38,308 nt of DNA, taken from assembly GCA_902772455.1 (NCBI GenBank), contig CACYAW010000024.1, positions 1 to 38,308 of the forward strand. Direction: 5' to 3'. The stretch's first letter is position 1, and every line of letters begins with the position of its first letter. Made by a program: the position numbers and the translations under genes. This DNA comes from an uncultured Bacteroidales bacterium (lineage in GTDB: Bacteria; Bacteroidota; Bacteroidia; Bacteroidales; Muribaculaceae). This document shows, piece after piece, positions 1 to 10,645 of this stretch. Below the pieces are notes generated by a model. The model saw only the letters and a list, made by a program, of their open reading frames with translations. It made no database searches and had not been told where the DNA came from.

Positions 1-801
1 CTCCTTGGTGTACTTCACGGTCTCGTCGATAGCGCCCTGAGCGATGCCGAGGGCCTGCGAAGCGATACCGATGCGGCCGCCGTCAAGCGTCATCATAGCG
101 ATCTTGAAGCCCTTGCCGAGCTGGCCCAGCAGGTTCTCCTTGGGAACGATGCAGTTCTCGAAAATCAACTCACAGGTAGCGCTGCCGCGGATACCCATCT
201 TCAACTCCTTCTTGCCGACGGAGAAACCGGGCATGTCGCGCTCGACGATAAAGGCCGAGATGCCCTTGGTGCCCTGCGACTTGTCGGTCATGGCCATCAC
301 GATGAACACGTGAGCGTTAGAAGCGTTGGTGATGAAAATCTTGGAGCCGTTGAGCACCCAGTGGTCACCAGCGTCAACAGCGGTCGTCTGCTGCATGGCA
401 GCATCGGTACCGGCATTGGGCTCGGTCAGACCAAAGGCGCCAATCCACTCACCCGAAGCGAGCTTGGGCAAATATTTCATCTTCTGCTCCTCGGTGCCGT
501 GCTCCAGGATGGGAGCCATGCACAGCGAGGTGTGGGCCGAGAGGACAACGCCCGTGGTAGCACACACGCGTGAGAGCTCCTCAACAGCCATGATATACAT
601 CTGCACGGTACCGCCGGCACCGCCATATTGCTTGGGAATGGGAATACCCATCATGCCGAGCTTGCCCATCTTCTGGACCGTCTCGAGCGGGAAGCGCTCC
701 TGCTCATCAATCTCGGCAGCGAGAGGCTTTACCTCGTTCTCTGCAAACGAGCGAACCATCTGCAGGAACAATTCTTCAGTTTTGGAATAGCTAAAATCCA
801 T
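1..801 (-). CDS. bcd: Short-chain (butyryl-CoA) acyl-CoA dehydrogenase, C-terminus beyond the window
   Basis: This is a flavin-dependent acyl-CoA dehydrogenase that would reduce crotonyl-CoA to butyryl-CoA, passing or taking electrons through an electron-transfer flavoprotein. The 267 residues seen start at the ATG at 801 (MDFSYSKTEELFLQMVRSFA) and stay open to base 1. They include the family motifs GAFGLTEPNAGTDA and KIFITNASNAHVFIV and the stretch LDGGRIGIASQALGIAQGA. Family members are about 380 residues, so roughly 110 residues, including the expected catalytic glutamate near the C-terminus, lie off the left edge. It is the last gene visible in the lysine operon, downstream of hbd. etfBA could follow outside the window, but that is only an expectation. 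Assignment to the short-chain class rests on sequence and on the crt-hbd context. Confidence 0.93.
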   Translation of the reverse strand, partial: MDFSYSKTEELFLQMVRSFAENEVKPLAAEIDEQERFPLETVQKMGKLGMMGIPIPKQYGGAGGTVQMYIMAVEELSRVCATTGVVLSAHTSLCMAPILEHGTEEQKMKYLPKLASGEWIGAFGLTEPNAGTDAAMQQTTAVDAGDHWVLNGSKIFITNASNAHVFIVMAMTDKSQGTKGISAFIVERDMPGFSVGKKELKMGIRGSATCELIFENCIVPKENLLGQLGKGFKIAMMTLDGGRIGIASQALGIAQGAIDETVKYTKE

Positions 802-817
802 TTCTTTTAAAGTTTTT

Positions 818-903
818 AGTTTTAAGTTTTAAGTTGTGAGTACGGTATGTATCGCCTGAAAGAGGTAATATTACTTAAAACTAACAACTTAAAACTTAAA
901 ACT
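818..903. repeat. Perfect 20-bp inverted repeat in the hbd-bcd spacer
   Basis: The left arm (818-837) and right arm (884-903) are exact reverse complements of 20 bp, separated by 46 nt. The arms are AT-rich and built from the 7-mer-like words TTTTAAG and TTTTTAG seen in other spacers of the operon. There is no T-tract, so it does not look like a simple terminator. It could fold in the mRNA between hbd and bcd. The right arm lies in the frameshifted tail of hbd and would be intergenic if hbd were intact. Confidence 0.8.
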
Positions 904-1776
904 GAATTCATTAATACTTGTAGAAGCCTTCACCGGTTTTGCGGCCAAGCAGACCGGCACGAACCATCTTGCGCAGCAGCGGGTGAGGACGATACTTGGG
1001 ATCGCCAAACTCGTTGTACGATACTTGGGATCGCCAAACTCGTTGTAAAGCACCTCCATGATAGCGAGGTTCACATCGTTACCAATCAGGTCGGCAAGAG
1101 CAAGGGGTCCCATGGGATGGTTGGCACCCAGCATCATGCACTTGTCAATATCCTCGGCACTTGCGATACCGTCGGCCAGGATACCTACAGCCTCGTTGAT
1201 CATCGGGATGAGGATGCGGTTAACGACAAAACCGGGAGCCTCGTTAACGGGCACGGGGGTCTTGCCGATTTCGGTCGTCAGGTCAACGATGCACTTAGCA
1301 GTCTCCTCGCTGGTGAGCTGGCCCTTGATGACCTCGACGAGCGCCATGCGGTCGGCAGGGTTGAAGAAATGGCAGCCAATGAACTGGGCGGGACGGCTGG
1401 TGCAAGCAGCGATCTCGGTAATCGAGAGTGACGACGAGTTGGTGGCGAAAATGGTCTCAGGCTTGCATATCTTGTCAAGCTCCATGAACACTTCCTTCTT
1501 CAACTGCATGTTCTCGACAGCAGCCTCGATAACGAGGTCGGCATCGGCAAAATCAGCATAATCGGTCGTCGTGGTGATATTAGCCAGGATAGCCTTCATG
1601 GCATCCTCGGTAATCTTACCCTTCTCGACGAGTTTGTTGTAACCCTTGGAGATCGAAGCCATGGCTTTGTCCAGGCTCTCATGGGTGCGGCTCTTCATGA
1701 CCACGGGCATCTTGGCGGCAAAAGCCTTGACGATACCCTTAGCCATCGTACCTGTTCCAATAACGCAAATTTTCAT
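889..1776 (-). CDS. hbd: 3-hydroxybutyryl-CoA dehydrogenase with a frameshifted C-terminus
   Basis: An NAD(P)-dependent 3-hydroxyacyl-CoA dehydrogenase, interconverting acetoacetyl-CoA and 3-hydroxybutyryl-CoA. The start at 1776 gives [20 protein letters not shown] with the GxGxxxxG dinucleotide-binding loop. [33 protein letters not shown] and [19 protein letters not shown] are typical of the family. Up to residue 253 the sequence is normal. A 29-bp tandem duplication (repeat spanning 989-1047) then shifts the frame, and 42 unrelated residues follow to a stop at 889. Removing one copy restores [20 protein letters not shown] followed by GFYKY and a stop at 911, giving a 278-residue protein of normal length. 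The conserved GRKTGEGFY tail is therefore lost as sequenced. The gene may be inactive, phase-variable or affected by an assembly error. It lies 39 bp downstream of crt. Confidence 0.9.
989..1047. repeat. 29-bp tandem duplication inside hbd
   Basis: Two copies of a 29-bp unit lie head to tail (copy boundary at about 1018-1020), with 30 bases matching at period 29. The unit encodes [10 protein letters not shown] of Hbd. Because 29 is not a multiple of three, the second copy shifts the reading frame after residue 253. Confidence 0.97.
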
Positions 1777-1815: not shown

Positions 1816-2595
1816 TTATTCTCCAACAAACTTGGCAGCACGCTTATTCAGGAAAGCGTCCATGCCCTCTTTTTGGTCCTTAGTGGCAAAGCACTTGCCG
1901 AACAGCGTGTTCTCGTGAGCGATGGCAGCATCGGCATCCAGGTCGTAGCCCTCGTTGATGCTCTGCTTGGCCAGACGGATGGCAACAGGCGCGTTCTTGA
2001 GCATCATGGCAGCCATTTCCATGGCCTTGGGCATAAGCTCCTCGGGCTCATAAACGGCATTGACCAATCCGATGCGCAGCGCTTCGTCGGCACGGATTAC
2101 CTTACCCGTGTAAATCATCTCCTTGGCATAACCCTGGCCCACGAGTTTGGGCAAGCGGCAGGTACCCGAGAATCCCGGGATAATGCCCAATCCCACCTCG
2201 GGCTGACCGAATTTGGCCTTGCTCGAAGCAATGCGGATGTCACAGGCCATGGCAATCTCACAACCGCCACCCAATGCAAAGCCGTTGACAGCGGCAATGA
2301 CAGGAATGGGCAGTGTCTCGATGGCACGGAAGACCTGAGCGCCCAGACGGCCGAATTCCTGGCCCTGCGGCTCGTTGAGGTGAGCCATCTCGGAGATGTC
2401 GGCACCTGCCACAAACGACTTCTCGCCGTCACCAGTGATGATGAGCACGCGGGTCGCCTTGTCCAGGTTGGCGATAAAGTCGCTTATTTCCTTCAGGATG
2501 GTTGAGTTGAGCGCATTCAGCGATTTGGGCGCCGAGATCTTCATGACGGTCACCCCATCCTGCGGTTGCTCAATCTTCAAGAAATTGTATTCCAT
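1816..2595 (-). CDS. crt: Enoyl-CoA hydratase / crotonase
   Basis: A crotonase-fold hydratase interconverting crotonyl-CoA and 3-hydroxybutyryl-CoA. The 259 residues are standard length. The oxyanion-hole and catalytic segments are visible: FVAGADISEM, the glycine-rich LGGGCEIAMACDIRIAS with the first catalytic Glu, and FGQPEVGLGIIPG with the second. The usual GAGGTQRL is GFSGTCRL here, a mild variation. It lies 12 bp after atoA and 39 bp before hbd in the lysine operon. In lysine fermentation, crotonyl-CoA comes from the Kal reaction and can be reduced to butyryl-CoA or oxidised to acetoacetyl-CoA through Crt and Hbd, so both branches are encoded here. Substrate preference is inferred from context. 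Confidence 0.95.
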   Translation of the reverse strand: MEYNFLKIEQPQDGVTVMKISAPKSLNALNSTILKEISDFIANLDKATRVLIITGDGEKSFVAGADISEMAHLNEPQGQEFGRLGAQVFRAIETLPIPVIAAVNGFALGGGCEIAMACDIRIASSKAKFGQPEVGLGIIPGFSGTCRLPKLVGQGYAKEMIYTGKVIRADEALRIGLVNAVYEPEELMPKAMEMAAMMLKNAPVAIRLAKQSINEGYDLDADAAIAHENTLFGKCFATKDQKEGMDAFLNKRAAKFVGE

Positions 2596-10486: not shown

Positions 10487-10544
10487 TGTTTAATAGGTTT
10501 TAATTGTTAAACGATTATTTAGTTTTTAGATTTTTAGTTCTTAG

Positions 10545-10628
10545 TTGCTAGTCCCTAGTTGCTAGTCCCTAGTTGCTAGTCCCTAGTTGCTAGTCCCTAG
10601 TTGCTAGTCCCTAGTTGCTAGTCCCTAG
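10545..10628. repeat. Six-copy 14-bp tandem array in the kce-kdd spacer
   Basis: Six exact copies of TTGCTAGTCCCTAG run from 10545 to 10628. Each is two 7-mers of the form TTNNTAG/TNNCTAG. Degenerate 7-mers (TTTTTAG, TTCTTAG, TTTCTAG, TTGCTAG) extend the array on both sides, from about 10519 to 10650. The block fills most of the 159-bp spacer. It has no spacers of unique sequence and is not CRISPR-like. Copy number is likely to vary by slippage. Confidence 0.95.
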
Positions 10629-10645
10629 TTTCTAGTTGCTAGTTT

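Follow-up and report, generated by a model that had tools for sequence, protein, structure and literature searches.

According to the abstract of Cooley and Wright (2024, PMC11017572), errors made during assembly are known to produce false pseudogenes. The situation outlined there resembles the one analyzed here in two respects, in that a conserved gene is frame-shifted in a draft genome and whole in its relatives, and in that several such genes are found in one assembly. The abstract covers frameshifts and internal stops generally and does not mention exact head-to-tail duplications, which are the form seen here; a literature search at the level of abstract openings found no paper describing exactly this duplication artefact.

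The other closely related system is phase variation by tandem-repeat copy number, with which the present locus shares a repeat unit whose length is not divisible by three and which therefore sets the reading frame. Contingency loci retain their repeat tract across strains or relatives, whereas no repeat tract was found at the hbd site in any of the 88 relatives that could be aligned. A search for literature on reversible short duplications, again limited to abstract openings, yielded nothing useful.

A tandem repeat shifts the reading frame of hbd as sequenced

The window, i.e. the whole stretch of 38,308 nucleotides that was analyzed, from an uncultured gut bacterium, is the complete contig C24, one of 163 contigs of a draft assembly (G000; 3,153,659 bases, 87.43% complete and 4.52% contaminated). 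Its features are listed in Table 1 together with the other exact duplications of the assembly. Using TRF, an exact tandem repeat with a period of 29, 2.0 copies and a 100% match was identified at positions 989-1047, which confirmed the two exact head-to-tail 29-bp copies in hbd described in the sequence-only reading of this DNA. The span 889-1080 proposed there does hold the repeat, and it also includes the shifted tail of the gene, the repeat itself being restricted to 989-1047. Homology past the two units amounts to 1 base. When up to 3 mismatches were allowed, the 29-base unit occurred in the window exactly twice (989-1017 and 1018-1046), with 0 occurrences expected from 100 shuffles. A hairpin at the repeat had a z score of -1.79, and 12 of 200 shuffled sequences were as stable.

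As the earlier reading had also stated, the normal C-terminus of the predicted protein is replaced by 42 unrelated residues, the out-of-frame tail starting at residue 254, directly after Arg253. The normal ending was found on the same strand in another frame (window 911-1018, minus strand), where 35 residues are followed by a stop. A unit of 29 bases does not comprise a whole number of codons, and the regular ending is in a different frame, so a change in copy number at the repeat shifts the frame. Residues 2-257 of the frame as sequenced match positions 5-261 of the 283-position NCBIfam profile NF004474 (PRK05808; 3-hydroxybutyryl-CoA dehydrogenase), yet the score of 364 bits is below the curated cut-off of 408, unlike that of the whole 278-aa protein of relative L002, which reaches 415.7 bits. 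Among PDB relatives, 4r1n and 4kuh match residues 2-258 and 6aa8 matches residues 2-257. Database matches that end at residue 257 run a few residues into the out-of-frame tail.

Table 1. Coordinates of the features in the window and of the clean exact duplications in assembly G000. C, contig; L, locus.
Feature	Position	Strand	Gene or region	Remark
acyl-CoA dehydrogenase	1..801	-		cut by contig end at base 1
hbd, 3-hydroxybutyryl-CoA dehydrogenase	889..1776	-		295-aa frame as sequenced; residues 254-295 out of frame
conserved normal C-terminal coding stretch	911..988	-	hbd	25 residues + stop; intact; other frame than 5' part
29-base copy, one of two	989..1017	-	hbd	exact repeat
29-base copy, the other	1018..1046	-	hbd	exact; match runs one base further, to 1047
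short-chain enoyl-CoA hydratase (crotonase)	1816..2595	-		best family NF004475, 362.9 bits, cut-off 394
29-base duplication	C24:989		hbd	frame broken
82-base duplication	C5:58126 (L136:18890)		acyl-CoA carboxylase alpha-like subunit	frame broken
17-base duplication	C17:30916 (L148:10916)		M16-type peptidase	frame broken
34-base duplication	C61:14902 (L261)		OPT-type transporter	frame broken
21-base duplication	C5:411		methylmalonyl-CoA mutase-like B12 domain	frame kept
36-base duplication	C4:300		surface-type protein	frame kept
63-base duplication	C41:4093		large secreted-type protein	frame kept
62-base duplication	C27:2594		non-coding
19-base duplication	C32:3324 (L162:3324)		tRNA-Met gene (L162:3268-3344)	overlaps 3' end of gene

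Genomic context and pathway

The hbd gene is flanked by the acyl-CoA dehydrogenase gene that is cut by the contig end and by the crotonase gene, and genes for 3-oxoacid CoA-transferase subunits adjoin. A lysine fermentation set is located nearby, comprising lysine 5,6-aminomutase alpha and beta, KamB, KamC, lysine 2,3-aminomutase, KDD, KCE and KAL. The proposal that Hbd acts in an oxidative branch of lysine fermentation appears doubtful, as the classical lysine route leads from 3-aminobutyryl-CoA to crotonyl-CoA, acetoacetyl-CoA is cleaved, and Hbd is not a needed step. We agree that Hbd connects acetoacetyl-CoA and crotonyl-CoA, and the enzyme would serve butyrate formation from acetyl-CoA. 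The abstract openings retrieved in a search on lysine fermentation in this bacterial group contained nothing useful.

A 14-base unit is present in 7.4 copies at window 10542-10644, between two lysine fermentation genes, and period-7 arrays of TTTTAAG and ACTTAAA are found at 806-835 and 873-903, between hbd and the acyl-CoA dehydrogenase gene; these two arrays look approximately reverse-complementary to each other and could pair into a hairpin. Exact tandem repeats with periods of 7 and 14 are prominent, numbering 39 and 57, respectively, in 1.81 Mb of G000, and 9 and 8 in 400 kb of G023.

hbd in related genomes

In order to compare the repeat region among relatives, 91 related loci (L002-L092, at least 7 of which duplicate another locus) were aligned to it. 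The contig scan for hbd, in which 80 of 588 loci were kept, provided mostly drafts titled Bacteroidales or kin, many of them from ruminants, and it may lack very close neighbours of the window's own genome. The 29 bases are absent in 88 of the 91 loci, as one gap of 29 in 78 and as several gaps totalling 29 in 10, and the remaining three (L028-L030) were too distant to be aligned over the repeat region. The duplication is thus private to one assembly when compared with these 88 loci, among which a genome of the same species is possibly not represented, and none of the 88 has the long 295-residue form. A motif search placed the start and the end of the gene in one frame for 69 of the 91 loci, with a length of 278 aa in 68 and 279 aa in one, the other 22 having failed the search; these lengths fit the 278-residue protein that had been predicted to result from the loss of one copy.

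The conserved coding stretch behind the repeat (window 911-988) differs from that of the nearest relative in 2 codons synonymously and in 1 non-synonymously; across the 69 relatives, the median numbers of synonymous and non-synonymous codon differences are 8 and 0, respectively. In these codon comparisons the stretch is conserved and shows no decay; a lesion that is real at all would have to be very fresh.

Additionally, hbd matches were obtained in 40 of the 61 genomes searched, own genome included, and in 24 of the 36 other genomes of the same genus. All of these 24 show a main match up to residue 256 or 257 and, in another frame, a separate match to the tail. The gene was not found in the other 12 same-genus genomes (G001, G004, G006, G012, G016, G021, G022, G025, G026, G028, G029 and G030), which are drafts 62-96% complete, G012 being 96% and both G016 and G029 94% complete. 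Within this group, lysine 5,6-aminomutase beta was likewise not found in 8 genomes and was present in 4, once cut short; hbd or the cluster as a whole may vary across the genus or may have been lost in draft gaps. A second hbd in the own genome was also looked for, and there was one match only; with the assembly 87% complete, the absence of a second copy is not final.

Exact duplications elsewhere in the assembly

From the own assembly, 100 stretches (1,813,438 of 3,153,659 bases) were compared with 149 control loci of 1,421,003 bases, about 1.38 million of them distinct. The controls consisted of 109 hbd neighbourhoods from relatives and other bacteria, 20 loci of G023 and 20 of G002, and represent other assemblies, possibly made with different pipelines. 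A clean class was defined as exact two-copy repeats with a complex unit, a period of at least 17 and no more than 2 extra matching bases (in fact 0 or 1); since the limit of 2 is part of the definition, the lack of flanking homology in this class is partly by choice. The 100 stretches yielded 19 exact tandem repeats with a period of at least 17, of which 9 were set aside for having more than 2 extra bases, 1 was of low complexity and 9 were kept. The controls contained three, all excluded by the same rule (9, 19 and 4 extra bases). There were therefore 9 clean duplications in the 1.81 Mb read from the own assembly versus 0 in 1.42 Mb of controls (P = 0.005).

The nine units are 17-82 bases long. 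Apart from Hbd, the protein names given for the duplicated loci in Table 1 are putative and were read off the translations. Seven of the nine duplications lie within long reading frames, and of these four break the frame (29, 82, 17 and 34 bases) and three keep it (36, 21 and 63 bases), which is about what would be expected of random lengths, as without selection.

Relatives were also searched for four of the other affected proteins. The carboxylase matched in 34 of 37 genomes, own included; in the other genomes its main matches reach no further than residue 350 of 389, most of them stopping at 338 or 339, and in many cases a continuation lies in another frame. The mutase-like protein matched in 32 of 37 genomes, own included, and relatives that match over the full length have 7 codons fewer than the query. 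Some member of the peptidase family is present in all 37, and the close same-genus ones end, among the matches listed, at 478-495 of 545. The transporter matched in 24 of 31 genomes, own included, with the main matches of relatives starting at residues 27-29, bar one later-starting fragment. These matches show that relatives lack the duplications in all four genes.

A 42-base unit repeated about three times was also observed near a contig end of the own assembly (C58:394; L188), in a frame of repeated HHPRRYHQNGD-like residues.

Four of the nine clean duplications are located within 1 kb of a contig end, versus 7.2% of the bases read (P = 0.0025), a limit that was chosen post hoc. When places were drawn from the same stretches, the distance to the contig end gave P = 0.004 for the summed log distance and P = 0.015 for the median. 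The last 20 stretches (288,096 bases), which were fetched after the 1-kb idea had arisen, contained one clean duplication, 9,787 bases from a contig end, and so did not repeat the trend. The trend would be in line with an assembly cause without proving it.

Origin of the duplication

The sequence-only reading had left three options open, namely a reversible switch, a fresh loss of function and an assembly error. Of these, assembly error is the best supported, and we consider it probable that the second 29-base copy is an assembly artefact: the repeat is absent from the alignable relatives, the 3' end of the gene is intact, and such duplications are in excess over the controls. The 29-base duplication would then most likely be present in the sequence file and absent from the organism. 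As a mechanism, two pieces overlapping by 29 bases were probably joined head to tail with the overlap not collapsed. Uncollapsed joining of this kind would be expected to produce exact head-to-tail pairs of any length and in any frame, with no flanking homology, and the living cell would carry one copy and a normal 278-aa Hbd. A k-mer size of 29 was also considered, on the basis of the default k-mer list of MEGAHIT, as a single assembler setting behind the duplications; the unit lengths, from 17 to 82, fit no one k.

The exactness of the repeat, its confinement to one assembly and the absence of decay downstream of it would also suit a genuine tandem duplication of 29 bases, very recent in origin, by which hbd is inactivated in the strain or in part of the population and which may revert. 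Tandem duplications of about 29 bases do arise in bacteria. The loss of hbd may also be tolerated, given the 12 same-genus genomes in which it was not found, 4 of which keep another gene of the cluster; this observation slightly lowered our estimate for the artefact and raised that for a real loss by a similarly small amount, although these genomes are incomplete drafts and some of the absences may be gaps. A real loss would, however, need several independent fresh duplications, some in frame and others out of frame, within conserved genes of a single genome, and the lack of clean-class duplications in the control loci and the flanking homology of only 1 base also speak against it, so that we regard it as unlikely. 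The more general proposal of a lineage-wide burst of fresh, exact and revertible tandem duplications (17-82 bases, no flanking homology), hitting several metabolic genes including hbd, is in our opinion very improbable.

A reversible on/off switch (contingency locus) controlling Hbd has the least to recommend it, and we consider its probability to be minimal. A frame shift of this type would be reversible, and the number of copies in an exact 29-base direct repeat can in principle rise or fall. On the other hand, no alignable relative (0 of 88) keeps the repeat, and the same assembly contains comparable exact duplications, likewise private, at other places. Moreover, slippage needs an existing repeat or short homology to start, and the single base of homology flanking the unit indicates that the duplication did not begin by slippage on an existing repeat. 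The genes that usually switch are surface and defence genes, unlike hbd, a gene for a metabolic enzyme in a catabolic cluster. The suggestion of a switch is therefore left without support.

Implications

If the second copy is an assembly artefact, then four conserved genes of the draft, hbd and three others, would be mistaken for broken genes, and a metabolic model built on it would wrongly drop the step from acetoacetyl-CoA to crotonyl-CoA. Exact two-copy repeats without flanking homology, counted per assembly and compared with relatives, offer a cheap warning sign for draft genomes. If, instead, the duplication is real, a step of the butyrate pathway would have been lost naturally, and perhaps reversibly.
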